20,875 nt of DNA, taken from positions 1 to 20,875 of IMG/VR virus record IMGVR_UViG_3300049483_000188. One strand, given 5' to 3'. The position numbers were made by a program, and so were the translations under genes. The notes under the pieces were generated by a model. That model was not told where the DNA came from and did no database searches. It saw only the letters and a program-made list of their open reading frames with translations. This DNA is from a virus. Shown in pieces: positions 1 to 17,948 of the stretch (the stretch's first letter is position 1; each line of letters opens with the position of its first letter).

Positions 1-787
1 GGGGGAAGTTGCGGAAGAAGTCCTTGGACTTGTGCCAGTTGGTGCCTCCCTTGGCAGGGGTGCCGATGCGCCGTGCCCGCTTCTTGTTCTCGCGCGCGAT
101 GTCGGCCTTCTGCTGGTCAGTGGCGTCCTTGGGCTGCGGCACCGGTGGCTTGTACTTGTACTTCCTGCGCAGGCGCTTGGTCGGCGGCTTGCCCGTGTAC
201 TCGATGAACTTGTCTGCCTGCTCAGCCGTCATCCGGGTGGGCTGCAGGTGCTTGCGCCCCTTGCTCTCCAGATCGGCCTTGGTCTTCTTCTGGGCGTCCG
301 ACAACTCGAAGGGCTTCATCGGCTCAGCGGGCTTGGCATTGGCGGTCATGCGCTCGCGCGCAGTCTTCTCATCGAACTCTGAGGTCGCCTTGCCTGCAGC
401 AGCCAACTTCGCCTGCTTGGCCTCGTGCGCCTTGCGCTGGCCTGCCACCACCGCATCCACATCGACCGGCTTGGCTCGCTTGGCCTTGTCCCGCTCGTAG
501 TTGGCCTTGGCGTCGGACTCCACCCGCCCTGCCTGATCGCGGGCCTTCTGGCGCTCCTTGGGATCAGTGGAGATGCCGCGCTGACGCAGGGCCGTGTCCT
601 TCTGGTACGAGAACCACGGCTTGTGGATGTTCTCGTTGTACCAGTAGTCCGGACGCAGGATGGCCTCGTGCCCCATGTAGGCACCGCCCACGGCAGCAGC
701 ACCGGCTACCCCGGCCTTCTCCTTGTCGCCCAACTTCACTTCGACCTTGGAGATCTCCCGGTACTCAACCCCGAAGGCGGTGATCAC
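1..787 (-). CDS. Leader-tagged (AFGV…EISK) basic protein, 3' end outside window
   Basis: Reading frame open from a GTG at 785-787 to the window edge, about 262 codons with no stop; the C-terminus is missing. The GTG overlaps the portal stop codon (GTGA), the junction style used throughout the window. The protein begins M-ITAFGVEYREISK, the same leader as the genes at 14.5-17.9 kb and 4.6 kb. Residues 25-39 are a Gly/Ala-rich hydrophobic stretch ending GGAYMGH, like the glycine-zipper segments of the other tagged proteins. The rest is highly charged, Lys/Ala/Arg/Gln-rich and probably helical, with a very basic part near residues 205-215 (KRLRRKYKYK). It directly follows the portal, where head-morphogenesis, scaffold or protease genes usually lie. 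I recognise no enzyme domain. A structural or internal virion role is inference; existence as a gene is well supported. Confidence 0.85.
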   Translation of the reverse strand, partial: MITAFGVEYREISKVEVKLGDKEKAGVAGAAAVGGAYMGHEAILRPDYWYNENIHKPWFSYQKDTALRQRGISTDPKERQKARDQAGRVESDAKANYERDKAKRAKPVDVDAVVAGQRKAHEAKQAKLAAAGKATSEFDEKTARERMTANAKPAEPMKPFELSDAQKKTKADLESKGRKHLQPTRMTAEQADKFIEYTGKPPTKRLRRKYKYKPPVPQPKDATDQQKADIARENKKRARRIGTPAKGGTNWHKSKDFFRNFP

Positions 788-2640
788 TTCTTCTCCTTGG
801 GCGCAGGCTTCTTGGCAGGGGGCTTCTCCTTGGCCTTCAGCCGCATCTGCTTGACCTTCTCGCCATGCAGTTCCTGCTGGGCCTTGGTCTGGAACTTCAT
901 CTGGTTGACCTTCTCCTTGTGGAGATCGTCACCCTGCTTCAGTTTCTGGTCAGCAAAGCGGGGATCCTCACCCGCGCTCTTGGCCTGCATCTGGGCCTTC
1001 ATCTGCTCCAGCGTCAGGCCGTGCTTCTCCTCGGCGTGGCGCATCTGCTGCTCCTTGGCAGCCAGATCCAGTTCACCGCTCTGCACGGTCTGGGTGTCCT
1101 GAGCAGCCTGAACCTCGGGGTTCATCTGCTCCATGCCCATCTGGTCCTGCTGATCCATCTGCATGGCCTGCTGGTCCATGCCCATCTTGGTCTGCTCCAT
1201 CTGCAGAGCACCCTGCTCAGCCTGCTGGGACAGCCCGATGAGATCCAGCCGCTGCTGGGCCAGCCGCATGATGTTGGCCTGACGCGCCTCGGTCTCCTTG
1301 ACCTGCTCGGACGTCTCGTCCAACTTGGGCAGGCGAGCGGCATCGCGCAGGAACTTCTCCAGTTCCGGATCCGGGAACCACTGCAGGCCAGCGGTGGTGA
1401 GTTGGCCCATGAACTGGGACAACTGGGTGAGGTCGGGCGGATCGATGTCGCCGGGCACCAACTGGGGCAGTTGCTCCACCTTCCAGCCGTTCACCTCGAA
1501 CAGGCGGGGGATCGCGTAGCGATTGAACACGTCCGCGATGGAGGAGGAGATAGAGTTCATGGACGCCCGGAACAGGCCGGTCTTGTCGGTGTGCAGGGCG
1601 TAGGAGCCGGTGCCCTGATGGCCCACGAGGATGAAGTCCGCCAGCACGGTCATAAGGATTCGCTCCTCATACCGCTGGATGATCTCGTTGATGTTGAACT
1701 GGCGACCGCCACCGGAGTTGAGCAGGGCGAAGTCGAACATGTCCTGCTTGGTGTCCGGGTCCACCATCCTCGGGATGATGACGCCCTCCTGCTCGTTGCG
1801 GCGGACGCTCCTCACCATCTGGCGGAATGCCTCCACCATCTTGGCCTTGTCAGTCCCCTTGGCCGCAGACAGGTAGTCCGAGGGGACACGTGCCATCGGC
1901 AGTCCCGCCAGATCACGCTCGGCACCGATGGCCTCGATCTCCTCTAGACGCTTCTTCATGTAGTACGGGCGGTAGGCATTCCTCAGGAAGGAGCGACCTT
2001 CCGGATTGCCCTTGGCCGTGCTCACGCGGAAGAGAAGCGACTTCTCGATGGGGATCGTGATCATCTGGTAGTACGGAGGAGGGATCTGGACGTAGGCCTT
2101 GATCCCGCCAGTCTCATCGAAGACCCACCGCTGGAAGGTCTCCTGAGCGCGGATGGGGATCTTGCGCCAGCCGATGCGTCCGTCCGTGAACCGGGAGCGC
2201 TTCTTGTTGTCCTTCTCCCATGGACCCACGCGGCGCTTGTAGACGATCTCGTGCCACGAGAAGCCATAGGGGAGCATGGTGAGGATCTCGGTGATGAGGT
2301 CGTCCCACGTCGTGGACATGTCCTCCATGCACTGCTCTACGAACTCCGCAGCCTTCTTGTCCTCGTCCTTCTGGCTGGCGGGCTCCACACGCCAGTCCAC
2401 CTGACGCAGCAGGCGGTCCACGCTGAAGAGCAGGGATCCGATAACCGGATCGTTGTCGGCCATCTCCCGGTAGATCTGGACCGCCTTGCGGCCTTTGAGT
2501 TGCGGGAGGAACTCCTCATCGACGTACCCAGCGGTACGACGCAGGCCTGTGGCACCCAGTTCGATGAACGGCGAGGTGTTCTTGGGCACGTCGATTCCTG
2601 CACCCGGATCGATGCTCGCCTCATAGGTGCTAGAACTCAT
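784..2640 (-). CDS. Phage portal protein (DUF935 / Mu gp29-like) with long Gln/Met-rich C-terminal tail
   Basis: 618 aa. Forms the dodecameric portal at the capsid vertex through which DNA is packaged and leaves, and docks the terminase. The core is portal-like: an early stretch REMADNDPVIGSLLFSVDRLL, then WHEIVYKRR, and the segment GNPEGRSFLRNAYRPYYMKK followed by IGAERDLAGLPMARVP, which is typical of the DUF935/gp29 portal group. Position immediately after terL supports the call. The start ATG is preceded by GAGAGGATTGACGT, a good ribosome site, in a 24-base gap after terL. From about residue 440 to the end the protein changes to a Gln/Met/Lys-rich, coiled-coil-like tail (MEQTKMGMDQQAMQMDQQ) ending in a basic Pro/Lys segment (KEKPPAKKPAPKEKK). 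Such a tail is longer than the fold requires. Family call is confident; the role of the tail is unknown. Confidence 0.92.
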   Translation of the reverse strand: MSSSTYEASIDPGAGIDVPKNTSPFIELGATGLRRTAGYVDEEFLPQLKGRKAVQIYREMADNDPVIGSLLFSVDRLLRQVDWRVEPASQKDEDKKAAEFVEQCMEDMSTTWDDLITEILTMLPYGFSWHEIVYKRRVGPWEKDNKKRSRFTDGRIGWRKIPIRAQETFQRWVFDETGGIKAYVQIPPPYYQMITIPIEKSLLFRVSTAKGNPEGRSFLRNAYRPYYMKKRLEEIEAIGAERDLAGLPMARVPSDYLSAAKGTDKAKMVEAFRQMVRSVRRNEQEGVIIPRMVDPDTKQDMFDFALLNSGGGRQFNINEIIQRYEERILMTVLADFILVGHQGTGSYALHTDKTGLFRASMNSISSSIADVFNRYAIPRLFEVNGWKVEQLPQLVPGDIDPPDLTQLSQFMGQLTTAGLQWFPDPELEKFLRDAARLPKLDETSEQVKETEARQANIMRLAQQRLDLIGLSQQAEQGALQMEQTKMGMDQQAMQMDQQDQMGMEQMNPEVQAAQDTQTVQSGELDLAAKEQQMRHAEEKHGLTLEQMKAQMQAKSAGEDPRFADQKLKQGDDLHKEKVNQMKFQTKAQQELHGEKVKQMRLKAKEKPPAKKPAPKEKK

Positions 2641-2664
2641 ACGTCAATCCTCTCAGGCTATGGG

Positions 2665-4143
2665 TCACACCATGAGGGAGATCCCGTTGGGATCCGGCAC
2701 CTCTCCCTTGATGTAGACCTCGCCCTGATTGGGCGAGAACATCTGCTCCAACTTGGTGGGGGTCTTGTCCCGAGGCAGGTCCACCGGGCCCACGGGCTTA
2801 CCCGACCATCCCATGACCTTGAAGGCCAGCGAGAACGAGCAGACCTCGTCAGGCAGGTGGAAGTCCTGCCCGCTCTTGTAGAGATCGCCCACCTGACAGT
2901 ATTTGTGAGCAAGGTGCGCAGACTTGATTCGGGGAGCGATGACCGCTCCCTTCTCCACAGCGTTGACGTACTCGGAGAGCATGTTATTGCGGTTCTGCCC
3001 CGTCATGATGAAGGAGCGAGCGCGCGTATCAACATAGTCATTGACGACATTGCCAAGTCCAGTGCCGTCATGAATAGCAGTCGCGCTATATCGCTGAATG
3101 ACATCGTTGAACCATCCGATCATCTGCGGGTACGGACGACGGTTCACCCTCATGTAGTACACCAGTTGGTAGGGGTTCAAGTCCTGTCGCCACACGGAGA
3201 TGACGGTGTAGTCCTGCTCCTTGCCCCAGTCAGCGGCAGCCACGTAGTCTCCATCACGCTGGTACTCCGCGAAGGTGTACTCCTCGAAGTCCTTGGCGAT
3301 CTTCTCCGTGAGGGGCTCCATGGGCAGGGAGAACATCTTCTCTACTGCCTCAGTGTTGAAGGCGCGGTTGCCGATGGCAGGCTCACCGAGTTCATACTCG
3401 GTCCGCCACATCTCGGCGGGGATCTCCATCTTCTTGTCATCGATGGTCTTCTGGCTCAGCCAGCCGTCGATGGGGTTGGCCGAGCACTGGTAGCACCACT
3501 GGACGACCGGAAGTCCCCGGTCCTCGAAGCGCTTGCGCACCTCGGTGAACGTGCCCTCAGGGTTCTGCCACGTTGAGCACATAACCGTGTAGGGCTGGAG
3601 GATCTCCCCGAGGTAGTTCTTCTGGGGCATCGGCTGGCCGAGTGCCGCATCGAGGATGTCGATGTCCATCTCGTCGATCTCATCGAGGATGAGGAACGGC
3701 GGGTGAGGTCCACGCACTGTCTTCTGAGATGCCGTCAGGGGTCGGATGCGCGCCTTGTTGGTCAACTTGATCAGGTACTGCCCCTCGGTCTCGATCATGA
3801 AGCGAGGGGCGTTGGTGGAGTTGAGTGCGTTACGCATGTGCTCGTGGAGGTTGGTGGACTGGGCGAGCGAGCCGCCCAGCATGTTCACGTCAGCGCCGAG
3901 CAGGAAGGCCTTGGTGATCCCCAGAATGGACAGCATGAAGGACTTGCCAGACAGGCCTCGCGACCCATGCCACAGGGTAATTGATCCGCCCCTGCCGAAG
4001 TAGGCGTCGGCAAAGGCATCGAAGGGCGGGGTGTGATCGGGGTTGCCACAGGTGTTCCTAGGTATGACTACGTCCCACATTTTTCGGACAACCCACCAGA
4101 GTTCATCGTCATCCTGCGGCAACCTCTCTAACACGAACGACAT
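2665..4143 (-). CDS. terL: Terminase large subunit (ATPase and nuclease)
   Basis: 492 aa from the chosen ATG. Packaging motor that hydrolyses ATP to pump DNA into the prohead and cuts the concatemer. ATPase domain: Walker A-type GSRGLSGKS at residues 60-68, Walker B FLILDE at 150-155 followed by IDEMD, then a coupling-type segment (VMCSTWQNPEGTF) near 187-199. Nuclease domain, RNase H fold: AADWGKEQDYTVISVW with Asp305 and Asp311, and AIHDGTGLGN with Asp359. Length is normal for a large terminase. Two in-frame ATGs exist: 4161 has no ribosome site; 4143 has GGAGGTG upstream, so I use 4143. That start lies inside the end of the HNH gene (35-base overlap). The small-terminase candidate is about 15 kb away rather than adjacent. 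Confidence 0.95.
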   Translation of the reverse strand: MSFVLERLPQDDDELWWVVRKMWDVVIPRNTCGNPDHTPPFDAFADAYFGRGGSITLWHGSRGLSGKSFMLSILGITKAFLLGADVNMLGGSLAQSTNLHEHMRNALNSTNAPRFMIETEGQYLIKLTNKARIRPLTASQKTVRGPHPPFLILDEIDEMDIDILDAALGQPMPQKNYLGEILQPYTVMCSTWQNPEGTFTEVRKRFEDRGLPVVQWCYQCSANPIDGWLSQKTIDDKKMEIPAEMWRTEYELGEPAIGNRAFNTEAVEKMFSLPMEPLTEKIAKDFEEYTFAEYQRDGDYVAAADWGKEQDYTVISVWRQDLNPYQLVYYMRVNRRPYPQMIGWFNDVIQRYSATAIHDGTGLGNVVNDYVDTRARSFIMTGQNRNNMLSEYVNAVEKGAVIAPRIKSAHLAHKYCQVGDLYKSGQDFHLPDEVCSFSLAFKVMGWSGKPVGPVDLPRDKTPTKLEQMFSPNQGEVYIKGEVPDPNGISLMV

Positions 4144-4603
4144 GAGGGCACACACCTCCATTCAGGTGCTTGCCGACATTGCAGTTGTGGCAGAGAGTCT
4201 GAACGCTGTCGGGGTAGTTCTCTCGCTTCAGCCATCGCAGGAACGCCAATCCGCCGTCCATGTTCTGACGCTGGATGTTGCCGTCATTGAACACATGGTC
4301 AAGGGCGAGAAACTTCGGCTCATCCTCACCGCAACACACGCACACGCGACCGTAGTGATCGAACGCTGCTGCTCTGAGCCGGTAGTAGTAGTTGGCTCGC
4401 ATCTGACGGCGAGTCTCCGGGTTGTCGCGCAACCAGCGATTGTTCGTCTCTCTGGTGCGCTCAGGGTTCTTAGCGCGCCAATCGTAGTTGCGCTGATTGG
4501 CGCACGCCTTGCAGTCCGTGCGCCTTCCTTGTGTCCTAGGAGAACGCCAGTAGAACTCTTCCTCGTCCTTGGTCTCACCGCACTTGGTACAGGTCCGCTC
4601 CAT
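4109..4603 (-). CDS. HNH endonuclease with N-terminal zinc ribbon
   Basis: 164 aa. N-terminal zinc-ribbon Cys5-x2-Cys8 and Cys31-x2-Cys34 (CTKCGE … CKACAN), then an Arg/Asn-rich linker, then the HNH core: CVCCGE at 88-92, LDHVFNDG with His103, and LCHNCNVGKH with Cys138, Asn140, Cys141 and His146. The zinc ribbon plus HNH arrangement is common in free-standing phage endonucleases. It stops 35 bases inside terL, so translation may be coupled. Two readings are possible: a homing endonuclease that invaded beside terL, or one of the HNH proteins that work with TerL in cos-type packaging, as described for HNH genes next to terminases in HK97-like phages. The 40-base gap upstream is AT-rich compared with the neighbours. 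Nuclease class is confident; which role is not. Confidence 0.92.
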   Translation of the reverse strand: MERTCTKCGETKDEEEFYWRSPRTQGRRTDCKACANQRNYDWRAKNPERTRETNNRWLRDNPETRRQMRANYYYRLRAAAFDHYGRVCVCCGEDEPKFLALDHVFNDGNIQRQNMDGGLAFLRWLKRENYPDSVQTLCHNCNVGKHLNGGVCPHVVRVREVAAG

Positions 4604-4609
4604 GAGTGG

Positions 4610-4635
4610 ATTGTATTACTTCTAGTGCAGAAGTA
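4610..4635 (-). promoter_or_regulatory. Inverted repeat with possible -10 box upstream of HNH gene
   Basis: Perfect 7-base inverted repeat TACTTCT…AGAAGTA at 4617-4635 with a 5-base loop, in the 40-base gap between two genes in an otherwise gapless region. On the minus strand it is followed by TACAAT (4615-4610), which resembles a -10 hexamer, but I see no convincing -35 box. It could be a small operator, a weak hairpin or an internal promoter for HNH-terL-portal. No T-run follows, so it is not a classical terminator. Confidence 0.3.
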
Positions 4636-4643
4636 TGACATTC

Positions 4644-4952
4644 CTAGCGCTTCCTGCGCTTGGAACGGTCATAGCCCGTGGACACTCCCTGACCCGACAG
4701 GTCCTTGAAGGCCCTCCGCAGCACATAGTGGTGATGGTGGGCCTTGTCGATGATTCCCATGTCCTTGGGAGGCTTGACGAAAGTCAGCCTGCTGCGATGT
4801 GCCAGCGTGCGTTCCTCCTTGTGGAGCACCCAGAAGTAGTCCTTCTTGGTGTGCGGGCCAAGGACGCGCACAGGCGTCTTCCCCGTGATCCCGTGCAGGA
4901 GCGCGTGGGTGGGGACCTTCTTGGCCTTGGAGATGCCGAACGGGTTGGTCAT
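4644..4952 (-). CDS. Small basic protein with FGISK leader
   Basis: 102 aa, function not recognised. It starts MTNPFGISKAKK, clearly related to the MQDAFGISK start of the gene at 17781-17948, so it is a member of the leader-tagged set although it stands 10 kb from the main cluster. The body is basic and His-rich, with HAHHHHY-like content (HHHH near residues 72-75), and ends SKRRKR. No membrane segment is visible. The ATG overlaps the stop of the preceding gene by 4 bases (ATGA). It is followed by the only noticeable gap of the left half and then HNH-terL. DNA binding or an internal virion role would fit its charge, but this is inference. Confidence 0.8.
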   Translation of the reverse strand: MTNPFGISKAKKVPTHALLHGITGKTPVRVLGPHTKKDYFWVLHKEERTLAHRSRLTFVKPPKDMGIIDKAHHHHYVLRRAFKDLSGQGVSTGYDRSKRRKR

Positions 4953-5221
4953 CCGGGTCCCTGCTCGCGGAACCTGTTCGAGTGGGGAACACGCGCAGCC
5001 AGATACTCGATCTCCCCGATCTTGATGTTCATCTGCTCCTGAGAGACGAGGAAGGTAATCGGGCCACGAAAGTAACGGTTCTGGTCACTCATCAGCATGA
5101 TCCTCGCCCGCATCCCCACCTTGAAGAACTTACGGCGGGCAGTCATGACCGTCAGGTCAGCCTCGGCCATCGGGTAGGCCTGTACGATGGCCCTCGTCGC
5201 AGAGCCAGTCTGGGTGGCCAT
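4949..5221 (-). CDS. Hypothetical phage protein
   Basis: 90 aa, not recognised. It begins MATQTGSATRAIVQAYPM, contains a short basic stretch (TARRKFFKVGMRARIML) and a segment NRYFRGPITFLVSQEQMNIKIGEIEYLAARV that looks like alternating beta strands. No signal peptide, membrane segment or metal ligands. The ATG begins one base after the endolysin stop, and the gene overlaps the next by 4 bases, so it is translated in the same run as the lysis cassette. The sequence mentions no Cys. It could be a small tail or connector accessory, but nothing in the sequence decides this. Confidence 0.75.
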   Translation of the reverse strand: MATQTGSATRAIVQAYPMAEADLTVMTARRKFFKVGMRARIMLMSDQNRYFRGPITFLVSQEQMNIKIGEIEYLAARVPHSNRFREQGPG

Positions 5222-5222
5222 C

Positions 5223-5750
5223 TCATCCCCTCGGAACAGACAGTGGCTTACCGGCCCAATTGTTGTGCCGAACGCCGTTGGCGTCGATCCCTAGAAACTT
5301 GATCTTGTTGGCCACCGCAGTGGCATTGGCGTGCTGGGAGATCTGCCAGTGCATCGGATCCCAGTAGGCCGGTCCCCAGTCGCCACCCCATTCGAGGACG
5401 TCGTAGATCTCCTTGATCTGCTCCACGGCCTTGTGGTTGGTGACGGTCCGCCAGAAGGCACGATTGGCTGCCTTCTGCGCGCCCTCGTACGACCAGTTGA
5501 TGTCGATGGCCGTACCCGAGGAATGGCAGGACCAGCCTGCTCCTGAGGTGGCCTGACGGTAGGCATACCCGCCCGTGCACGTCGCTCGTAAGGGGCGGAT
5601 CCAGTCGGCGTAGTCGTAGGCCACTGCCAGCATGAGCGGCAGGACGACCTTGTGGCAGGTCAGCCGGATCTTGGTTCCCGGTACCGTGCCGGTCTTGAGC
5701 AGAGTGGAGCCGGGCTTGAGAACCGGCCATCCGTTAAGGCTGCTGGGCAT
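5223..5750 (-). CDS. Endolysin, M15-family peptidase (VanY / L-Ala-D-Glu type)
   Basis: 175 aa. Peptidoglycan-cleaving zinc peptidase that releases progeny. The M15 signature is complete: SCHSSGTAIDINW at 74-86 supplies His76 and Asp83, and DPMHWQI at 131-137 supplies the third zinc ligand His134; WGGDWG at 121-126 is the usual motif just before it. GYAYR at 61-65 fits the substrate-site arginine region. There is no signal peptide, so it needs the holin encoded just upstream. The start ATG lies 17 bases inside the holin gene. There is no recognisable separate cell-wall-binding domain; the C-terminus (residues 150-175) is short. Family call is confident; exact bond cleaved is not determined by sequence. 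Confidence 0.9.
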   Translation of the reverse strand: MPSSLNGWPVLKPGSTLLKTGTVPGTKIRLTCHKVVLPLMLAVAYDYADWIRPLRATCTGGYAYRQATSGAGWSCHSSGTAIDINWSYEGAQKAANRAFWRTVTNHKAVEQIKEIYDVLEWGGDWGPAYWDPMHWQISQHANATAVANKIKFLGIDANGVRHNNWAGKPLSVPRG

Positions 5751-5979
5751 CAGCCACTTCCTTCCCGCGCCCGTAGCGCGTGTCCTTGTTGTTGAACCAA
5801 TTGATCAACGGAGGCGTGGCGATGGCCAAGGCCCCGATGAGCCACGTCTGGTAGTGGTCGAAGGAGATCTGGCCCTCGTTGGACCACGTCAGCAGGATGG
5901 CTCCGAGCATGGCCCCGCAGAAGACCTTGAATGCTGATCCGAACACGCTGGTGGCAAGCCAGACCTTGAAGGCATCCAT
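5734..5979 (-). CDS. Holin
   Basis: 81 aa, with two hydrophobic segments (about residues 15-32, FGSAFKVFCGAMLGAILL, and 44-61, QTWLIGALAIATPPLINW) and a charged C-terminus (NNKDTRYGRGK). Size, two-segment topology and position directly before the endolysin make this the holin that permeabilises the inner membrane. The start is well marked: AAAGGAG about 5-7 bases before ATG, the strongest ribosome site of this region, preceded by a 36-base gap with a tandem repeat. The first residues MDAFKV look like the leader of the tagged proteins but lack the Gly and the rest, so I treat this as chance. Confidence 0.85.
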   Translation of the reverse strand: MDAFKVWLATSVFGSAFKVFCGAMLGAILLTWSNEGQISFDHYQTWLIGALAIATPPLINWFNNKDTRYGRGKEVADAQQP

Positions 5980-6000
5980 GATGACTCCTTTCCTAATTAG

Positions 6001-6018
6001 TGTCTCACTGCTGTCTCA
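6001..6018. repeat. Tandem TGTCTCA repeat upstream of lysis cassette
   Basis: TGTCTCA occurs at 6001-6007 and 6012-6018, spaced 11 bases, about one helical turn. It overlaps the stop codon of the upstream gene and precedes the holin ribosome site. Spacing would suit a dimeric regulator, but this is weak: two copies of seven bases can arise by chance. Confidence 0.25.
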
Positions 6019-6357
6019 TCGGTAGAGGCCTCTGCCCTGCGAGGACAGCCGGTTGGAATCGTCCGAGGAACTCATCTCCTTGCCCGCTGTCCTGATGCGC
6101 GAGGCGCGCTCGGTGACCCCATTGCCGTCATCGCGACGAGCGATCCGCAGGGGAGAGAACAGCCGCGTCTTCACGCACCGCCATGTTCGAACCCCGGTGC
6201 TCTCGATGACGAGCGTGGCTCCCCAGCCTGCTGTAGTGATGTAGGAGCCGCCAAGGTTTTCCCAAGCCTGATTGATGATCTGCGCCCCGTCCCTCTCAGG
6301 ATCGGACAAGGTGTAGACCTTGGCGACTGGATTGATCCAGTAGATGGAGTAGGTCAT
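6016..6357 (-). CDS. Small protein at end of tail module
   Basis: 113 aa, not recognised. The first half (MTYSIYWINPVAKVYTLSDP … GGSYITTAGWGATLVIES) is aromatic and beta-strand-like; the second half is hydrophilic and basic (RRDDGNGVTERASRIRTAGK), ending SSQGRGLYR. No membrane segment. The start overlaps the preceding gene by 4 bases. It is the last gene before the holin, after the tail-tip genes, so a small tail-associated or fibre-accessory role is plausible but inferred from place only. Confidence 0.75.
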   Translation of the reverse strand: MTYSIYWINPVAKVYTLSDPERDGAQIINQAWENLGGSYITTAGWGATLVIESTGVRTWRCVKTRLFSPLRIARRDDGNGVTERASRIRTAGKEMSSSDDSNRLSSQGRGLYR

Positions 6358-6530
6358 CCGTCCTGCCTAATGAAGGGCAGGTAGGTCACGCCGAGCATTC
6401 CGTCCCACGCAGATACGCTGATGCCAGACATGTCACTAGGCCAGTCGGTGACGATCTCCTGTTCGACATCCGCCCACTGCAGGGTGTCAGCAGTGCTGGT
6501 CATCAGTACGCGGTAGTAGATGCTGCTCAT
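6354..6530 (-). CDS. Very small hypothetical tail-module protein
   Basis: 58 aa from the ATG at 6530, which overlaps the stop of the preceding gene (ATGA). An in-frame upstream ATG at 6593 lies inside the upstream gene and gives an unlikely basic extension, so it was not used. Sequence MSSIYYRVLMTSTADTLQW … VSAWDGMLGVTYLPFIRQDG is aromatic and probably beta-rich, without Cys, and without a membrane segment. Family not recognised. Tight overlaps on both sides support that it is a real gene. Confidence 0.65.
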   Translation of the reverse strand: MSSIYYRVLMTSTADTLQWADVEQEIVTDWPSDMSGISVSAWDGMLGVTYLPFIRQDG

Positions 6531-7489
6531 CCCGGCCCCTGCCCTGCTGCATAGCGCACGTAGGCGTTCATGTTCGGCTGAAGGGCTAGCCACCGCTGGT
6601 TGTCAGAGAAGTTAGGGTCTGAGGCCGTGTCCAAGATGTTCCCGTTCTGATCGCGCAGTTCGATAATCGAGGTGTCGGCTGATCCAGTGAAGGTCACGGT
6701 GAGATCTGTGCCCATAACCGTCCACCCACTGATGGTCCAGTCATAGCCGGGATTGGCGGTCACCGTAAGGTCTGCTGCGTTTCCCGTCATCATCGGCATG
6801 GTGGTCAGCGGAGGAGAGCAACCTGTGAAATCACAGTGGCAGTGGTAAATGGCATACGGATGAGCGTCTAGTTCGTGCTCCTCAACTGAGTCGATGTTCA
6901 TCGCGAGGTTGCCGTACACCTCGTAGATGCCAGAGACCGCAGTTTCCACCGTCAGATCAGCCCAGTTGAAATGACCGAGGATTCCGTTCCTCGCTTCCTT
7001 GAACGGATCATCGTAAAGATTGTTACCTGTGTCGGGGTCAACGCCTACAGCATCGGCATACCAGTCTGCATACACCGTCACGTTCACGCTTGCCGCCTCA
7101 TACTGACGTGGGTCGAAGGGGAATGGCTGGTATCGATATTCAGGAATACCTTGCATCCACTGACTGCCAGCAACAGTGACCGGATCAACAGCGGCAAGTC
7201 GATTACGCCATAGGTACCTGCCTGCGCGAGGAGAGCCGATGAGTTCCCCGTTGCGATTCTCGCCGTCCACAGGATAAGCATCGTGCTGCCACAAGGTCGC
7301 CCCAGTCGTCGTGGAGATGGCCTGAACGACAGGGCTGGTACCCGTAGAGGCAAGGATCGCCTCTTCACCATCTGCACTGACGACCATCTGCAATCCGTAA
7401 ACCGTGCCCGCAGCGGCAAGCGAGTCGATGTCTACAGCGTTCACGCTCCATGGCACGCCGTCTCTGATGAAGGTCGCTCGCCAACTCAT
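6527..7489 (-). CDS. Tail-tip / host-recognition protein, beta-rich
   Basis: 320 aa. The N-terminal part (about 30-90) has propeller-blade-like text, with VVQAISTTTGATLWQHDA resembling a PQQ/WD-type blade. The middle contains AASVNVTVYADWYAD and a Cys/His cluster YHCHCDFTGC near residues 217-226. The C-terminal part (about 235-300) looks like an Ig-type or beta-sandwich module, with NAADLTVTANPGYDWTISGW followed by TDLTVTFTGSADTSIIELRD. The start overlaps the stop of the 481-aa gene by 4 bases. Together these suggest that the two genes form one tail-tip assembly, or that one longer gene was split. Function in adsorption is inferred from position between minor tail genes and lysis. Confidence 0.78.
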   Translation of the reverse strand: MSWRATFIRDGVPWSVNAVDIDSLAAAGTVYGLQMVVSADGEEAILASTGTSPVVQAISTTTGATLWQHDAYPVDGENRNGELIGSPRAGRYLWRNRLAAVDPVTVAGSQWMQGIPEYRYQPFPFDPRQYEAASVNVTVYADWYADAVGVDPDTGNNLYDDPFKEARNGILGHFNWADLTVETAVSGIYEVYGNLAMNIDSVEEHELDAHPYAIYHCHCDFTGCSPPLTTMPMMTGNAADLTVTANPGYDWTISGWTVMGTDLTVTFTGSADTSIIELRDQNGNILDTASDPNFSDNQRWLALQPNMNAYVRYAAGQGPG

Positions 7490-11501: not shown

Positions 11502-13315
11502 GTCGGCTTGCCTCCAGAGATGATCGGATCGTGGTTGGGCAGGATGATCACTCCCGACAGAGGACGCATGACGAATCCAGTGGCCTGAACAGGGTTGGTC
11601 TCGTTGACCGGCTCAGGGGGCGAGGGGATGCTCAGTGGAGCACGGAACTGATGGCTCATGCGCGTGGACAGTCGCGCCATGATCCCTGCTGGCTCAAGGA
11701 ACACGCCGACAGAGGGAGAAGGATCCCCTGTCCCCGACAGAGTGATGGTCGACTCAGTGAGTTCAGTGTTCTCGATGAACCCGGTGAACTCCTGCTCCAC
11801 GCGAGGCTGGCTGATGGTGACGTCATCCATGCGGAAGTAGATCTCCGCTCCATCGGCAGAGATGATCACGGCCTCTCCGTTGGACCTGCTCCACTGCAAC
11901 GCTGTGACAGTGAGCGATATCTGCTCCCACTGGTCATGCAAGGTTGAGACGGTGGTGGCAACAGGAGGCAGATAGGTGTAGTCAGGCCATACTCCTGACG
12001 TGTCCCAGACTCCCAGCATCACCGCATTGTCGGGGAAGGGCACATACACCCAAACCGAGATAGTCACGTCAGCAGAGGCGTCGTAATACCACGGAGAGTG
12101 GTAGATGTTCAGTGACGGCGTGTAGTAGAGCCGATTGCGATTGGGCCCGTCATCAGCCGGGAGATTGACCTCCAAGGACTTGGTCCCTGAGTGAGAGAGA
12201 GTGGAGTTGACCTCAACGAAAGCAGGATTCTCGTCGTAGTTAAGCCAGTACCAACTGATCTGCCAGTCCGTTGCCGAATAGGCCTCGAAGTCATCAGACA
12301 GGACGGTGGAGGAAACAGCGCCCGTGCGCGTAACACGAAGATTGTCCGAGTAGATGCTGTCGGTGTCGCTCAGCAGTTTGGGAATCCCGTACCTACCGAA
12401 GCACAGTCGCCTGTCCTCTGAGGTAGTCGTGATCTCCATATACTCCCATTCGTCTCGAACAGTGGAGAACACCTGCTTGAAGATCTCTCCTTTCCAATCC
12501 TCCGTTCTCAATTCAGCAGGGCCAATATTCCCTGACGGCACCCATACCCATACGCCGTAGGTGTAGTCACAGCCCGGCCAGAGCGTCCTGTTGTAGTTGA
12601 GTCCTAGATCTGATCCATACCCTGACGTGCTTCCTGAGATGGATTGATCAGTCGATATGTCGGGCACCCAGAGATCCTTGAGCGGCCCGTCGTAGTCTCG
12701 TGTTTCCACCGAGTAGTTGGGCCTGACAACAAGACGATCAATGACGACAGATACGCCAGCAAAGTTCAGCGGCCCTTCGATATGGATCGTGTGAACATCG
12801 TCAGGTCCATGTGAGTAAAAGTCAGTCTGGTACTGATACCCCGAGACAGAAGTAGGCAGCAGCCAACTGCGTGTTCCCACGCATATCGTGTGAGGCACGC
12901 CGTACACGCTGTCCTGCACGGCCCACCACTCAAGGATGTATGGGCCGGGAAGAAGCCCGGTGATCGTCGCAATATCGGCGTAGAACGTATCCGCCCCGGC
13001 TACTGTCGTCACCTTGAGGCTGGTGAATCCGGGCCTGAGAGTAGAGGGCTGAGTAGCCATCGTGAGGTATCCCAGCGTCCCATCCATGCTGCTGTCGAAC
13101 TCGATATGACGCGTTCCCGACTTCCACACGCTTCCTGCTGCTGTGCTGGCAGGATTGACAGTCAGCAGGACAGTTCCCCGGTCAGTGACGACACCAGCCG
13201 CTGCTGGCGTGCGAGTGGAGACAAGAGCAGCAGAGCCGGGCACGCCCCTCGTCCCTGCAGATGCAGGGGTGGGCGAGAGAGTTACGCCTGTCGCATCCCC
13301 GAACCAATCAGCCAC
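11498..13315 (-). CDS. Tail protein with repeated beta-sandwich, carbohydrate-binding-like modules
   Basis: 605 aa. After an Ala/Pro/Thr-rich start (SAGTRGVPGSAALVSTRTPAAAG), the protein shows about three units of the same style: roughly 60-200 (ending DRLVVRPN), 220-330 (YTYGVWVWVPSG … YSDNLRVTRTG) and 335-505 (DDFEAYSATDWQ … TISVWVYVPFPD … FRMDDVTISQP). Each has a W-V-x-V-P strand and finishes with a D-x-[LV]-x-[VI] strand, as in CBM4/9-like galactose-binding jelly rolls. The C-terminus is Pro-rich. Likely a minor tail protein that binds cell-wall sugars; sugar binding is inferred from the fold pattern. The ATG is separated by a few bases from the stop of the next tail gene downstream partner and overlaps the 856-aa gene at its end. 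Confidence 0.8.
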   Translation of the reverse strand: MADWFGDATGVTLSPTPASAGTRGVPGSAALVSTRTPAAAGVVTDRGTVLLTVNPASTAAGSVWKSGTRHIEFDSSMDGTLGYLTMATQPSTLRPGFTSLKVTTVAGADTFYADIATITGLLPGPYILEWWAVQDSVYGVPHTICVGTRSWLLPTSVSGYQYQTDFYSHGPDDVHTIHIEGPLNFAGVSVVIDRLVVRPNYSVETRDYDGPLKDLWVPDISTDQSISGSTSGYGSDLGLNYNRTLWPGCDYTYGVWVWVPSGNIGPAELRTEDWKGEIFKQVFSTVRDEWEYMEITTTSEDRRLCFGRYGIPKLLSDTDSIYSDNLRVTRTGAVSSTVLSDDFEAYSATDWQISWYWLNYDENPAFVEVNSTLSHSGTKSLEVNLPADDGPNRNRLYYTPSLNIYHSPWYYDASADVTISVWVYVPFPDNAVMLGVWDTSGVWPDYTYLPPVATTVSTLHDQWEQISLTVTALQWSRSNGEAVIISADGAEIYFRMDDVTISQPRVEQEFTGFIENTELTESTITLSGTGDPSPSVGVFLEPAGIMARLSTRMSHQFRAPLSIPSPPEPVNETNPVQATGFVMRPLSGVIILPNHDPIISGGKPT

Positions 13316-13323
13316 TGTCTCTC

Positions 13324-13692
13324 CTAGACGCTAGTGAGGTCCAAGGAGATCGCTCCTACGGGGAAGTACGCGGACTCTCCTGCGGCCAGAGTCAACGGGG
13401 TGATCAGGTGGTAGTGCCACAGGATGTCACTGGCAGTGGCCTGCACGATGAACCATCCCTCAGCGATTCCCCCGCTCAGGGCAGCGCCTGTGTAGAAGGA
13501 CTGGCTGTTCTTCACTGTCAGGCCATCCCATGCCATGAGTCCATGGATGCTGTTGCGCGTGCCTGCCAGTTCGGAAAGGGCCAGATCGACAAGGGGATCA
13601 GCAGCATTGGTGAACAGGCCCAGATACCAGTCCGTGTCGATGAGGTTGATGCCGAGGATGTGCTCAAGGATGTCGATCTTGTAGAGAGCCAT
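13324..13692 (-). CDS. Small tail fibre-type protein (paralogue 1)
   Basis: 122 aa. It starts MALYKIDILEHILG, then DWYLGLFTNAADP and ends with WHYHLITPLTLAAGESAYFPVGAISLDL. The pattern 'WYLGLFT … L..PLTL.AGE…F..G.I.L' is that of small actinophage tail-fibre-like proteins. The neighbouring gene (13692-14069) has the same layout, so these are probably diverged duplicates. Its ATG and the stop of the neighbour share the same base, and there is an 8-base gap to the 605-aa gene. No membrane segment and no Cys. Family assignment is by pattern only. Confidence 0.78.
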   Translation of the reverse strand: MALYKIDILEHILGINLIDTDWYLGLFTNAADPLVDLALSELAGTRNSIHGLMAWDGLTVKNSQSFYTGAALSGGIAEGWFIVQATASDILWHYHLITPLTLAAGESAYFPVGAISLDLTSV

Positions 13693-14069
13693 TACATCGC
13701 TCCGTAGGACAGCATCCCGCTGGCGATCCTGAAGGTGGAGAAGGCGCTCAGGGTCACCGGAGAGGACAGGTACTCATAGGCCTCAAGGCTGCCTGCTGTG
13801 TCAGCAGAGCACAGCCCATAGGCGATGATCGTTCCCCAGTTGTTCACGGGCGCATAGGAGATGTCGAAGTTCCATGTGCTCACCCCTGCTGAGGGCGCTC
13901 CCCAGTAGGCAGGGTCAAGGTAGTGGCGCGAGTAGTCCACTGCTGTGGGCTCGGTGATCGAATTGCCGGTGTCCGTCCATGCAGGGTAGAGAGTCAGCAG
14001 GGCAAGGTAGAGAGGCTGTCCTACCCGCGCTGTGACGATGGCATTGGAGGTGGCGACAGTGATGCCCAT
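13692..14069 (-). CDS. Small tail fibre-type protein (paralogue 2)
   Basis: 125 aa from the ATG at 14069, which shares one base with the stop of the upstream gene (TGATG). An in-frame ATG at 14189 lies inside the upstream gene and adds a low-quality basic, Pro-rich extension, so it was rejected. Layout: QPLYLALLTLYP (cf. DWYLGLFT in the neighbour), then ITEPTAVDYSRHYLDPAYW, a middle NNWGTIIAYGLCSADTAG, and an end SSPVTLSAFSTFRIASGMLSYG that mirrors the neighbour's 'PLTLAAGES…FPVGAISL'. This indicates duplication and divergence. A trimeric fibre or tip subunit is a reasonable inference. Confidence 0.78.
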   Translation of the reverse strand: MGITVATSNAIVTARVGQPLYLALLTLYPAWTDTGNSITEPTAVDYSRHYLDPAYWGAPSAGVSTWNFDISYAPVNNWGTIIAYGLCSADTAGSLEAYEYLSSPVTLSAFSTFRIASGMLSYGAM

Positions 14070-14524
14070 CAGTAGCCCCCAGAGATCGGGTTGGGCTTGC
14101 GGGGGATCTGGAAGGTCACCCGCGTGTAGAGCGCGTGCAGGTGAACCGTGTCCATCTCCACACTGTATTCGGCAGACTCGCAATCCCACTGGATCACCGC
14201 GCTGCCCACGTTGAACTGCAGGGTGTAGCGATTCTGCGTGAAGGCGCTGATGAGCGTCCTGATGTTGGTGAACATGTCTGCCAGATCATTGCCTGTCACA
14301 TACACCGTCAACTGCTCAGTAACGTTCGTCTTGCGCCTGTGGACAGTGAACTCCCCATCAGCGACAGGGCTGGACACCTGCTTGCGATCCCACTGGACTG
14401 TTCCCCCGAACACCGCAGGGCCTGCCACGCGGTAGTGCGTGACATCGTTGATGTCCAGATCGTTGTCGCCAAGGTAGTCACGCGTCACCTTGACGCTCAG
14501 GGATAGGTCAATGGCATACGTCAT
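14069..14524 (-). CDS. Tail-associated protein
   Basis: 151 aa, beta-rich, no membrane segment. Text such as VTHYRVAGPAVFGGTVQWDRKQVSSP, TEQLTVYVTGNDLADMFTNIRTLISAFTQNRYTLQFNVG and HLHALYTRVTFQIPRKPNPISGGY resembles small minor tail or tail-completion proteins of actinophages, in which a conserved central helix (DLADMFTNIRTLISAF) is flanked by strands. It overlaps the 626-aa tagged gene by 4 bases upstream and shares one base with the fibre gene downstream, so it marks the switch from the tagged cluster to the tail genes. Exact family not identified. Confidence 0.75.
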   Translation of the reverse strand: MTYAIDLSLSVKVTRDYLGDNDLDINDVTHYRVAGPAVFGGTVQWDRKQVSSPVADGEFTVHRRKTNVTEQLTVYVTGNDLADMFTNIRTLISAFTQNRYTLQFNVGSAVIQWDCESAEYSVEMDTVHLHALYTRVTFQIPRKPNPISGGY

Positions 14525-16401
14525 GCTGTCTGCCTCATGGCATAGCGCGCCTTCTGGGTGACCACAGCCTTGTCCTTGGCCATGTCATCAGCAGCGCTCC
14601 ATGTCTTGATCTTGGGAGCCTGAACGGTCTTCGGCTTGAGGGCAAGGGCAGCAGCCTTGGGCTTGAAGAACGCCTTGGCGACAGGATCCTCAGCCTTGCG
14701 AGCGTCCAGCAGGGCCTGCATGGCAGGGGTCTCGCTCTTCTTCACGCGCTCCTTCTTGCGCATGTCAGCAGCGCCCTTGCCTCCCAGAGCACCCAGCCCT
14801 GCGCCGAGGGCGACAGGAGCCAGCACGATGGGGGACTTGTTGAACCTGATCAGGGAGCGGGTGAAGGCCTTGGATGAACTCTTCTTGCCCGACATGGCAG
14901 CAGCCATCCCAGCAGCAGGGACGCCCACGATGTTGCCAGCGGCCCCTCCTGCAGCGGCTCCCAAGAGAGCGCCTGACTTCCAGTCCACGCCATGGTCAGC
15001 CTTGGTCACTGCCTCCTGAGCCACCTTGGGATGACGGTAGGCATACATCCCGCCTGCTCCCAGAGCGATGCCTGTCAGGGCTCCTGCCACGCCACCTGCG
15101 TGCATGGCACGCGTTCCCTTGACCCCTGACTCGATAGCCCGCAGTTCCTTGATGGAGGGCTGCCATGTCTTGGGATCGGGAATGGCCTTGCCGTGCTTGT
15201 CGGTGATCTTGACGTTCTTCTGGTGCTTCTTGCCATGCATCAGGTTGTCTGCTGCCTGAGGAACATCAACCCGTGAGGCAGGAGCCTTCTCCCGTTTCCT
15301 CTTCAGGGTGGCTCTCCGCTTGGTCGTGTAGTCGACCGTATCCTCATGCACCTTCTGGCGATTCTTCTTGTAGGTCGTTCCCCCTGCGCGTGCGCCTACG
15401 CGCGATCCGATGGCAGAGCCAGCAACCCAGCCTGCTCCTGTGGACAGGGTGTACTTGGTATTGCGCTTGTCGCCCTCCTGCCCTGTGAGGTCAGCCTTGC
15501 CGATGCTGTGCTCATCCTTGGCCTGACGCTCTGCAGCAGCCTTAAGGCGCTTGAACTCAGCAGGATCCTTGCTCTTGCCCTCTAGTTTCTTGAGCCACAT
15601 CTCCTGATCCTTGGCCTGCTTCTGATGGGCAGGAAGGGAGATCTTGGGCTTGCCTGCAGTCTTGGGGACATTGACGACCCTGTCCTCGTACTCCTCGTTC
15701 AACTCCTTCATGCGCACAGCATGTGCCTCAGGGGACATATCCCTGCCCGCGAGGGTGCGCTTGAAGATCTCATCCTCCATGTCCATGAGCATCCTCTTGG
15801 CGATGATCTGAGCGTCGTTCTTCTTCACGCGGGGATTCTTGCCCTGCTTGCCATGCTTCTGGGCATTGGCCCGCCTACGAGCGCGAGCAGCCCTCTGGGT
15901 ATCAGGAAGGGCGTTGTCCACTTCCTTGGCAGTAGCGCTCAGAGGTATGCCTTCGAGGTTCTTGTCCCCCTTGGCATGGGCAGCCAGCACAGGATCGACA
16001 TCCTCATTGGCTATGGCCTTGAGTCTTAACTGCTCCCTGTTGTGGTTGACGATCTTCTCCTGATCGAGTTGATGCTGCCTAGCCACTCGCTCAGGGGGAA
16101 CGTAGAGGGATGGCTTAGGGGGCTCAGGAGCAGGCGGCTCAGGCTTCTTGACGACCACGCCTGTGGGCTTGGGCGGCTCAGGGGCAGGAGCCTTGCCCTT
16201 TACCTTGACCTTCTTGGTGCGCGTGATGGTCTCGATGATGGTCTTGCCTGCCTTGCCACGCGTAGCCAGATAAGCAGCGCCAGCCCCCACACCAAGCCCA
16301 GCAGCAGTGCCCGCCGCCACCTTGGTGCCTGTGGAGAACTCATGCCTCTCCTTAGCGGGCTCTTCCCACCAGTCCTTGCGCACACCAAAGGCATCAATCA
16401 T
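14521..16401 (-). CDS. Large leader-tagged protein with several glycine-zipper segments
   Basis: 626 aa. It begins MIDAFGVRKDWW, the shared leader. Gly/Ala-rich hydrophobic segments lie at about 28-47, 321-341, 435-455, 476-505 and 523-546; the first and third end in AYLATRG and MYAYRHP, like the segments of two other tagged proteins. A proline-rich part has PAPEPPKP twice (72-79 and 90-97). The rest is long, basic, helical and Lys/Ala/Arg-rich (for example AARARRRANAQKHGKQGK near 171-188). No enzyme motif. Charge plus membrane-insertable segments fits an internal virion or ejection/pore protein, as T7 gp14-16 do in another phage, but this is inference. The start has AGGAAG two bases before the ATG and overlaps the upstream gene by 4 bases. 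Confidence 0.85.
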   Translation of the reverse strand: MIDAFGVRKDWWEEPAKERHEFSTGTKVAAGTAAGLGVGAGAAYLATRGKAGKTIIETITRTKKVKVKGKAPAPEPPKPTGVVVKKPEPPAPEPPKPSLYVPPERVARQHQLDQEKIVNHNREQLRLKAIANEDVDPVLAAHAKGDKNLEGIPLSATAKEVDNALPDTQRAARARRRANAQKHGKQGKNPRVKKNDAQIIAKRMLMDMEDEIFKRTLAGRDMSPEAHAVRMKELNEEYEDRVVNVPKTAGKPKISLPAHQKQAKDQEMWLKKLEGKSKDPAEFKRLKAAAERQAKDEHSIGKADLTGQEGDKRNTKYTLSTGAGWVAGSAIGSRVGARAGGTTYKKNRQKVHEDTVDYTTKRRATLKRKREKAPASRVDVPQAADNLMHGKKHQKNVKITDKHGKAIPDPKTWQPSIKELRAIESGVKGTRAMHAGGVAGALTGIALGAGGMYAYRHPKVAQEAVTKADHGVDWKSGALLGAAAGGAAGNIVGVPAAGMAAAMSGKKSSSKAFTRSLIRFNKSPIVLAPVALGAGLGALGGKGAADMRKKERVKKSETPAMQALLDARKAEDPVAKAFFKPKAAALALKPKTVQAPKIKTWSAADDMAKDKAVVTQKARYAMRQTA

Positions 16402-17033
16402 GACTTCCTCAGATCCTTCAGCCGGTTGGTGACGTCGAAATACTTCTTGTCCCCGCCTGCTTTCAGGCCAGCCTTGTAGGAGGGATTGAACATCATGACC
16501 CCAAAGCCATTCTGCTTGGCTGTAGCCAGCCTCCTGTAGTCCGACTGCTTGCGGTACTTGGGCTTCATGACCGACTCAGCCCTAGCCTCGTCTCCCCACA
16601 ATTTCTCTGGCTTGGAGAACAGGCGCACTGCTGCGCTGGCAGGCTTTCTACGCGTGGCGTGCTCCATCTCGTGCCTTTGGAAAGACCCCTTCTTGGGAGC
16701 CGCGATCCTTCTGGCCATGGTCCTCTGGCTTTCCCCCGGCTTGGGGAAATTAGGAATCCAGAGTGATCCCTTGCCTGAGAACTTGGGTATCTCTGTCTGC
16801 CTGACGGGCTGTCCCTTGCGATTGGCTGTCAGCGTGGCATTGGCTTGAGTATCGCCATACAGCCTCTTGTGCTCATCCATGAGCCCTGTGATCTTCTTGT
16901 CTGCCTCTGACATTCCCTGAGCGGCCTTGTGTGACCCCTTGATCCCTGCCTTCTCAGCGGCTGACATGGCAGAGATGGCCTTGTAGCCACCTACTGCGCT
17001 GAAGGACTTGCGCACACCAAAGGCGTCCTGCAT
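16398..17033 (-). CDS. Leader-tagged putative zinc metallopeptidase (HExxH)
   Basis: 211 aa. It begins MQDAFGVRKSF, the shared leader, with an 18-base DNA identity to the start of the next gene (see findings). The body has RHEMEHA at 120-126, i.e. His121-Glu122-x2-His125, the zinc-binding HExxH motif; Glu149 or Glu153 in WGDEARAE is a plausible third ligand, the order found in small gluzincin-type peptidases. Surroundings are basic (MARRIAAPKKGSFQ before, ATRRKP after). C-terminus KKYFDVTNRLKDLRKS. No membrane segment or signal peptide. It may process the tagged proteins or head proteins during assembly, or be ejected to act in the host; both are inference. The start lies 2 bases after the stop of the upstream gene, without a strong ribosome site. 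Confidence 0.8.
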   Translation of the reverse strand: MQDAFGVRKSFSAVGGYKAISAMSAAEKAGIKGSHKAAQGMSEADKKITGLMDEHKRLYGDTQANATLTANRKGQPVRQTEIPKFSGKGSLWIPNFPKPGESQRTMARRIAAPKKGSFQRHEMEHATRRKPASAAVRLFSKPEKLWGDEARAESVMKPKYRKQSDYRRLATAKQNGFGVMMFNPSYKAGLKAGGDKKYFDVTNRLKDLRKS

Positions 17034-17035
17034 GA

Positions 17036-17302
17036 CTACTTCTTCTTGCCCTTAGGGGGATTGGGATTTAGGGTCAACTTGGAATTGGGGTCACGCATCC
17101 ACGAATCGAAGTCAGCCTGATCTTTCTTGGCTCGAATGTTTGTCACGTTCTTAGGCTGCCCCATGCCCTCCAAGCGGCGCATATCTGCCCCCTTCATCCC
17201 AGCCTTCTTGAGATGCTTCAAGGTCTTCTTCCCCAGAGGCTTGGGCGGCTTCGGCAACTTGACCTTGGAGATCCTGCCGTCCTCTACGCCAAAAGCATTC
17301 AT
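17036..17302 (-). CDS. Small basic leader-tagged protein
   Basis: 88 aa from the ATG at 17302, which overlaps the stop of the upstream gene (ATGA) and follows GGGAG by 7 bases. A further upstream in-frame ATG (17377) would add an Arg-rich stretch inside the neighbour and was rejected. The start MNAFGVEDGRISKVKLPKPPKP shows both parts of the leader, AFGV and ISK. The rest is very basic (LGKKTLKHLKKAGMKG) and ends NPNPPKGKKK. No membrane segment, no Cys. It resembles a small DNA-binding or internal head protein by charge only; function unknown. Confidence 0.8.
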   Translation of the reverse strand: MNAFGVEDGRISKVKLPKPPKPLGKKTLKHLKKAGMKGADMRRLEGMGQPKNVTNIRAKKDQADFDSWMRDPNSKLTLNPNPPKGKKK

Positions 17303-17784
17303 CGGTTTCTCCCTGCCATGTATGCGCCTGTGCCCACGACGCCTGCTCCTGCTGCTGTTGCCCCGCCAATGACCCACGGGTTCTTGATGGCATTGCCGAA
17401 GGCTGATGCACTGGCGTTCTTCTTCTTTCCTCCGCCAGCCTTGGGAGGCTTATTGGCCTTGGGAGTAGCAGGAGGCTTGGCCTGAGCGCCTACGCTCACG
17501 GTCTTTCCCCCGCCTGCTACAGGAGAGGCTGCTGCGGTATGGACGCTGGGAGCAGTGGTGGGCGTGTTGCTGCGTGAGGGGGCAGCCTGATTGAACACGG
17601 GGTTCTGACGACGCGAGGCCACCTTGGCGGCTGATGTCTGGCTCCTGTTGGGAGCGGCAATCGCTCCCCCAGCCTTGACTGCTCCTCGGTTCCTGAGCAT
17701 CTGGCCCACTCGGGACACTGGCTCCCACAGGTTGCCCTTGGAGATCTCCTGAGGGTCTCGTTCTACCCCGAATGCGTCTCTCAT
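17299..17784 (-). CDS. Leader-tagged protein with C-terminal glycine-zipper segment
   Basis: 161 aa. It starts MRDAFGVERDPQEISKGNLW, again with both AFGV and ISK. The middle (about 40-130) is low-complexity, rich in Ala, Pro, Ser, Thr, Gly and Lys (ASPVAGGGKTVSVGAQAKPP), likely disordered. The end (about 136-159) is PWVIGGATAAGAGVV then GTGAYMAGRNR, a single Gly-zipper membrane segment closely resembling residues 31-48 of the 626-aa protein. A disordered, positively charged protein with one C-terminal membrane anchor fits a virion or ejected protein; not proven. The ATG overlaps the stop of the 55-aa gene upstream (ATGA). Confidence 0.8.
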   Translation of the reverse strand: MRDAFGVERDPQEISKGNLWEPVSRVGQMLRNRGAVKAGGAIAAPNRSQTSAAKVASRRQNPVFNQAAPSRSNTPTTAPSVHTAAASPVAGGGKTVSVGAQAKPPATPKANKPPKAGGGKKKNASASAFGNAIKNPWVIGGATAAGAGVVGTGAYMAGRNR

Positions 17785-17948
17785 GACTTCTTGGCCTTCC
17801 GGAAGGCTCCCTTGCCCCGCGATCTGGCATCCCGAGCAAGGTCCTTGGTCCCCTTACGAGCCAGCCTGAGGCTGTTACCCGGCTTGGGCTTGAGCGCGTA
17901 CTTGGGGAGAGACTCGATCCCCTTGCTGATGCCGAATGCGTCCTGCAT
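17781..17948 (-). CDS. 55-aa leader-tagged basic peptide, first gene of the cluster
   Basis: 55 aa, shorter than a usual ORF cut-off. It starts MQDAFGISKGIESLPKYALK; the remainder is strongly basic (RLARKGTKDLARDARSRGKG and FRKAKKS). The start has the best ribosome site of the cluster: AGAGGAG, 4-5 bases before the ATG, and it follows the 34-base hairpin. The stop overlaps the next ATG (ATGA). The protein is little more than the leader plus a basic tail, so it may show what the minimal tagged cargo is. Function not recognised. Confidence 0.78.
   Translation of the reverse strand: MQDAFGISKGIESLPKYALKPKPGNSLRLARKGTKDLARDARSRGKGAFRKAKKS

Follow-up and report, generated by a model that had tools for sequence, protein, structure and literature searches.

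The 20,875-base virus record IMGVR_UViG_3300049483_000188, analysed in its entirety and termed here the window, carries seven minus-strand open reading frames (ORFs) that begin with variants of one short peptide, and this peptide is probably a transplantable tag for loading proteins into the phage head, which would probably be removed at a hydrophobic-x-Lys site by a Peptidase_S78_2 (XkdF-type) prohead protease. The seven starts listed in the original prediction are all present at their coordinates, the first two also checked in the DNA itself, and use ATG in six cases and GTG in the ORF at 787. Inspection of the ORFs also bears out the claim that the tail, lysis, portal and terminase genes of the window lack the peptide.

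A search of related phage genomes, proposed with that prediction as a check, shows the peptide recurring at the starts of 125 proteins of distinct sequence drawn from 14 uncultured relatives and from contig fragments. Relatives were reached by a scan with the protein encoded after the portal gene, which gave the 14.9-kb locus L002 (portal 92% identical to the window portal), and by a portal-profile scan and a DNA pattern for AFGV[DE]HG..SK free of any start-codon constraint, which has matches in 41 viral stretches. The 14 long related records (50-83 kb) were examined using gene calls from our own caller; the records are metagenomic and some are fragmentary, and several motif classes were set after inspection. 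The 125 N-terminal tags follow the consensus M-x-[SD]-A-F-G-[VI]-[DE]-H-G-(E)-[IV]-[SAE]-K with Phe and Gly invariant, Ala in 119 and Pro in 6, Val in 109 and Ile in 16, Asp or Glu in 115, His in 110 and the subsequent Gly in 95. In the 1,478 genes called from the window together with 15 related records, there are 66 occurrences of [STDN]AFG[VI] within the first 14 residues, 11 within the last 35 and 5 at other positions; when the first 20 residues are shuffled, the mean number of N-terminal matches falls to 0.17, with no more than 2 in any of 200 trials. A further DNA pattern, not anchored to position, gives at least 85 unique sites, at least 68 of them N-terminal with the Lys element described below, a few C-terminal and one internal, the others being chance-like. 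All four Gly codons are used in the N-terminal tags (GGT 37, GGG 35, GGC 32 and GGA 21) and the Ala, Val and Ser codons likewise vary freely; since third positions are free, selection acts on the peptide, as had been argued from the differing codons of the window starts.

The form of the tag changes in concert within clades. Every N-terminal tag in a clade of eight phages reads S-(A/P)-FG[VI][DE]H, and the clade of the window, L002 and G006 has mostly D/N/T-AFG with Arg, Tyr, Asp or Lys replacing the His, which is as expected if all tags are read by one common receptor. Variants with Trp in place of Phe are seen in G011_45 and G013_12 (MRSVWGIEHGEVSK and MTSAWGIEHGEVSK). The tag was not found in 50,697 isolate records by tblastn with a 20-amino acid consensus, a query so short that this is a weak test, and neither the C-terminally tagged family nor the HExxH family described below has isolate relatives by the same program. 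A crude de novo test for 4-residue patterns at the ends of proteins picks up the tag in several of the tag-bearing phages, missing it in G002, G005, G009 and G010. Applied to seven isolates or isolate-like records whose coat or portal genes are related, it gives nothing that clearly exceeds shuffled sequences, so that another shared tag in those seven is unlikely.

The description of the peptide as a leader is too narrow, although the N-terminal signal is real, as copies also occur at the C terminus and internally, making it a terminal tag. The core SAFG[VI]xH closes some proteins (for example ...KSHDPRM-SAFGVEH-COOH and ...YAKRDSA-SAFGINH-A) and lies within fused ones (GKVSK-SAFGVDH-EVSK). 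There are 43 unique non-N-terminal copies, a few of which are probably chance matches or miscalled starts, and 20 of the 43 lie no more than 3 residues from the C terminus. A hydrophobic-x-Lys element is found 3-9 residues after AFG[VI] in 119 of the 125 N-terminal tags against a null of 9.3% in the same proteins, and no more than 9 residues upstream of 40 of the 43 other copies against a background of 11.4%, with several internal tags having it on both sides. The element is therefore placed on the side of the body at either end while keeping the same N-to-C sense, an arrangement more readily explained by a processing site than by one contiguous docking motif. The gene following the protease illustrates the choice of ends, with the tag N-terminal in G004 and G011, C-terminal in G001, G002 and G013, and at both ends of a longer protein in G007. 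The products of this gene in G004 and G013 form one cluster, with those of G001 and G002 outside it by blastp, and it is likely but not proven, judging from these comparisons, that the tag has switched ends within one family. Internal copies are also seen in the C-terminal region of the G008 portal (L160:564-2492) and after the MuF domain of a G004 protein (L145:7967-9985). The extreme C terminus of many N-tagged proteins reads -[KR]xLP (L183:17461-18021, L129:10126-10821, L105:2289-2798 and L112:8855-9064), possibly a second terminal signal.

Tagged genes are placed between and around the portal, MuF, protease, scaffold-like, coat and connector genes, and the replication block has none. Where a record offers a portal or coat gene as reference, all 65 lie on the late strand and not one of the 456 genes on the opposite strand is tagged, and 64 of the 335 genes within four genes of the portal, protease, coat or connector are tagged against 15 of 1058 elsewhere (p = 3e-28). 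A Peptidase_S78_2 protease is present in 15 of the 16 long records searched, exceeding the Pfam gathering score in L002 (3.3e-21) and G004 (4.5e-22), and the G004 coat gene belongs to a major capsid protein family (phrog_1005, 7.3e-89; 42-47% identical to annotated members). The protease and scaffold-like proteins carry Lys sites resembling the tag junction in their N-terminal parts, [IVM][SA]K near the N terminus in 13 of 13 proteases compared and hydrophobic-[AST]-K-[RK] in 13 of 13 scaffold-like proteins, which supports a link between the protease and the tag. In HK97, too, gp4 cleaves the coat protein on the C-terminal side of a lysine. The N terminus of the coat protein (MPNPTQSDLHVN, L145:14569-15567) is similar to the stretch directly after [IV][SA]K in many proteases (LISKMSPTQSDL and LVAKFGPSQSDVHVN; L145:10008-11048), and this resemblance may perhaps reflect a docking peptide common to both that self-cleavage exposes.

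The bodies joined to the tag are dissimilar, as had been claimed, with nearly every carrier forming its own blastp cluster once tags are masked and approximately 60 body clusters in total. Lengths range from 47 to 827 amino acids, and most bodies are without any match, the exceptions being glycine-zipper models, a GNAT-like domain, DUF6321 and the HExxH family. Composition is more uniform. The median net charge per residue is +0.143 in tagged proteins and -0.024 in the others, with 98% and 10%, respectively, above +0.05; glycine-zipper-like segments occur in 44 of 82 tagged proteins against 53 of 1359 others; and there are only 2 Cys in 19,382 residues of tagged proteins, the Cys frequency being 0.35% in conserved structural proteins that lack the tag and 1.05% in the remaining genes. 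Such avoidance of Cys would be expected for proteins that unfold through the tail and meet an oxidising envelope. The DUF6321 body, for which a literature search found no paper, has matches in 501 isolate phages, most of them cyanophages, over a stretch that begins near residue 5-16. HExxH bodies for their part exist in both tagged and untagged form, and the tag is accordingly modular.

The HExxH family includes the window protein encoded at 16398-17033 (E = 1.9e-10 with a hidden Markov model built from five tagged relatives). Residues H121, E122, H125, R129, E149, R151 and A152 (window numbering) are invariant in seven sequences, and in a set of 15 sequences H115, E116, H119 and E144 are invariant, giving an HExxH motif with a downstream acidic residue. 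An AlphaFold model of the window protein from seven sequences was poor, with a predicted local distance difference test (pLDDT) score of 46, and the 15-sequence family led by L278 was used instead, giving a model with pLDDT 75 in which residues 1-12 are disordered. Searching the PDB with this model in Foldseek gave insignificant matches only, the top viral Foldseek matches were weak (IrrE/peptidase, E = 0.009-0.08), and the VIA-align list is headed by HExxH peptidases with Z at most 4.3. The fold matches are weak, yet zincin-type peptidases recur among them, and the family is regarded as a putative HExxH metallopeptidase. A published survey describes zincin-like peptidases in phage proteins for which packaging and injection have been proposed (PMC5512222). 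The loss of the leader from retained bodies, which was named beforehand as evidence against the prediction, is found only for HExxH family members in more distant loci, where no tag was found or the N terminus is replaced and several proteins keep a hydrophobic-x-Lys/Ser junction.

In the proposed mechanism the core (S/D)-A-F-G-(V/I)-x-(H/R) would dock head-destined proteins onto a common component of the prohead during its assembly, the candidate partners being the coat, scaffold or protease, and the S78_2 protease would then cut the tag off after loading at the hydrophobic-x-Lys between tag and body. The cargo, consisting for the most part of small and very basic glycine-zipper proteins that lack cysteine, would lie among the DNA and be ejected subsequently, with an occasional enzyme (the HExxH putative peptidase, the GNAT-like or the DUF6321 protein) carried along. 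The original proposal of selection on the peptide and of a T4-like targeting or cleavage signal on basic bodies receives strong though indirect backing from the head-block location, the net charge, the C-terminal copies and the body-side hydrophobic-x-Lys, the wording as a leader being the part that does not stand. We lean, if only slightly, toward a general cargo-import code, that is, a clade-wide address usable at either end that loads dozens of unrelated, fast-changing proteins and enzymes, is clipped at hydrophobic-x-Lys and co-evolves with a single receptor. Several observations weigh against head loading with removal of the tag. All carriers come from uncultured phages with none known in culture; a few, including in the window, lie in the stretch from the small to the large terminase gene and one lies past the tape measure gene, away from the coat; the short window forms (MQDAFGVRK and MTNPFGISK) lack the His and the spacer; and hydrophobic-x-Lys was formulated as a cleavage site post hoc with the data already inspected.

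The tag might instead dock proteins to the head and never be removed, hydrophobic-x-Lys being merely part of the docking motif. That tag and element occur together in 119 of 125 N-terminal tags suits this explanation, and cleavage is something we infer; however, one contiguous docking motif would hold a single order, whereas the element lies upstream of C-terminal tags in the same N-to-C sense (40 of 43) and on both sides of several internal ones, making a permanent docking tag unlikely. A further possibility is that late proteins are sent to some other common site, such as the host membrane, DNA or a host-takeover complex, for which glycine-zipper segments and basic charge would also be suitable. 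This is quite improbable given the position of the tagged genes around the portal, protease and coat, the internal copies in head proteins (the G008 portal and the G004 protein after its MuF domain) and the prohead protease in 15 of 16 long records.

Descent of the carriers from one ancestral gene, as diverged paralogs in which only the start is conserved, would account for the glycine-rich helix-like segment and basic tail found at the C-terminal side of many short carriers. It is difficult to reconcile with lengths of 47-827 amino acids, with bodies as unlike as HExxH, GNAT-like and DUF6321, with tags at either end, with the same body occurring with and without a tag and with the disorder of residues 1-12 in one fairly confident model, and this very improbable reading was rejected. 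The same placement at either end, together with that disorder, disfavors the alternative, raised at the outset, that the leader is part of a shared fold. An element acting on the DNA level, such as a translation start or regulatory sequence that encodes the peptide incidentally, would fit the concentration of tags at start codons, but the use of every synonymous Gly codon and many Val, Ala and Ser codons and the copies at C termini and within genes leave it hardly any probability, and it too was rejected.

Head loading followed by removal of the tag is functionally closest, by analogy, to the T4 capsid-targeting sequence, the P1 DarB signal and the head propeptides of giant phages. The T4 sequence is a short N-terminal peptide on internal proteins IPII and IPIII that routes foreign proteins into the core and is processed by the prohead protease (PMC9958956). 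The likeness is of a short terminal peptide; here it is shared by many proteins whose head location is predicted, with the differences that dozens of unrelated proteins carry it, that it is also C-terminal or internal, that its junction is hydrophobic-x-Lys and that the protease is of the XkdF type (S78_2). The N-terminal 30 residues of P1 DarB are enough to bring a reporter to the capsid, and the authors found no consensus among Dar protein N termini (PMC9024508), whereas the consensus among the tag carriers is obvious. In SPN3US and giant phages the prohead protease gp245 removes N-terminal propeptides, two of only 20-24 amino acids, from several head and ejection proteins; the available portion of that report places cleavage after A-x-E, a glutamate-type site compared with the Lys at the junction here, and mentions no shared docking core on the propeptides (PMC10052503). 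The significance lies in how phages choose internal head proteins, which is poorly understood and has been called mysterious for T4 in a review (PMC9958956); with the tag the signal is legible in the sequence itself and the question becomes directly testable. Predicted cargo inventories could be drawn up for uncultured phages, co-evolution or the modelling of complexes could be used to look for the receptor, and the tag is a possible, testable minimal removable signal for loading proteins into phage-like shells. Encapsulin cargo-loading peptides, which bind the inner face of the shell protein, likewise are short peptides on unrelated cargo and load an HK97-fold shell; their sequence differs, and removal by a prohead protease, predicted for the tag, does not occur in them.

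The seven window ORFs, all on the minus strand, have bodies with no Pfam family and no convincing PHROG match. The ORF at 17781-17948 (tag MQDAFGISK, 17922-17948) encodes a basic protein of 55 amino acids without Cys, having 15 Lys and Arg against 2 Asp and Glu after residue 15. It is followed by 17299-17784 (tag MRDAFGVERDPQEISK, 17737-17784, DNA read directly), encoding 161 amino acids with a glycine-rich hydrophobic segment toward the C terminus (GGATAAGAGVVGTGAYMAGRNR), and 17036-17302 (tag MNAFGVEDGRISK, 17264-17302), encoding a basic protein of 88 amino acids, with a similar tag, MNAFGVDDGTISK, at L002 13181. The putative HExxH metallopeptidase at 16398-17033 (211 amino acids; tag MQDAFGVRK, 17007-17033) has its HEMEH codons for residues 121-125 at 16659-16673, and its tagged family combines HExxH with a downstream E-x-R-A. 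The ORF at 14521-16401 (tag MIDAFGVRK, 16375-16401) encodes 626 amino acids, basic overall (Lys and Arg 119, Asp and Glu 63) with Gly-rich hydrophobic segments. The 102-amino acid protein at 4644-4952, upstream of the gene for the untagged terminase large subunit (2665-4161), has the divergent tag MTNPFGISK (4926-4952). The untagged Mu-type portal gene (784-2640; PF06074 5e-38, phrog_113 5e-94) is followed immediately by the ORF at 2-787 (tag MITAFGVEYREISK, 746-787), which is truncated by the end of the record.

Tagged genes in L002 are a homolog of ORF 2-787 (341 amino acids, 38% identical and tagged as well), an ortholog of ORF 4644-4952 (L002 1499-1642) and one more, with the tag MNAFGVDDGTISK. 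The ortholog bears the tag MKDAFGVSRETLSK and keeps the tag and C-terminal body with the middle missing. The weaker window cases (MTNPFGISK at 4952 and the short MQDAFGVRK, MIDAFGVRK and MQDAFGISK) are supported by relatives such as this one. The middle of ORF 4644-4952 (KVPTHALLHG...) is similar to the C-terminal part of a tagged DUF6321 protein (KLPTHAIVNG..., L011:11286-11882), an apparent case of domain shuffling among tagged proteins. L002 further encodes an AAA-domain protein, a MuF protein and the XkdF-type protease. The first of these, in the head block at L002:6023-9889, has 1288 amino acids and carries at its C-terminal end an AAA ATPase domain together with the lid (PF00004 and PF17866), and the proteins of relatives at this position are of similar large size. 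Upstream of the small terminase gene in the window are a RuvC-like small protein (19819-20307) and a WhiB-like protein (19437-19802), the latter recognised by eye and suggesting an actinobacterial host.

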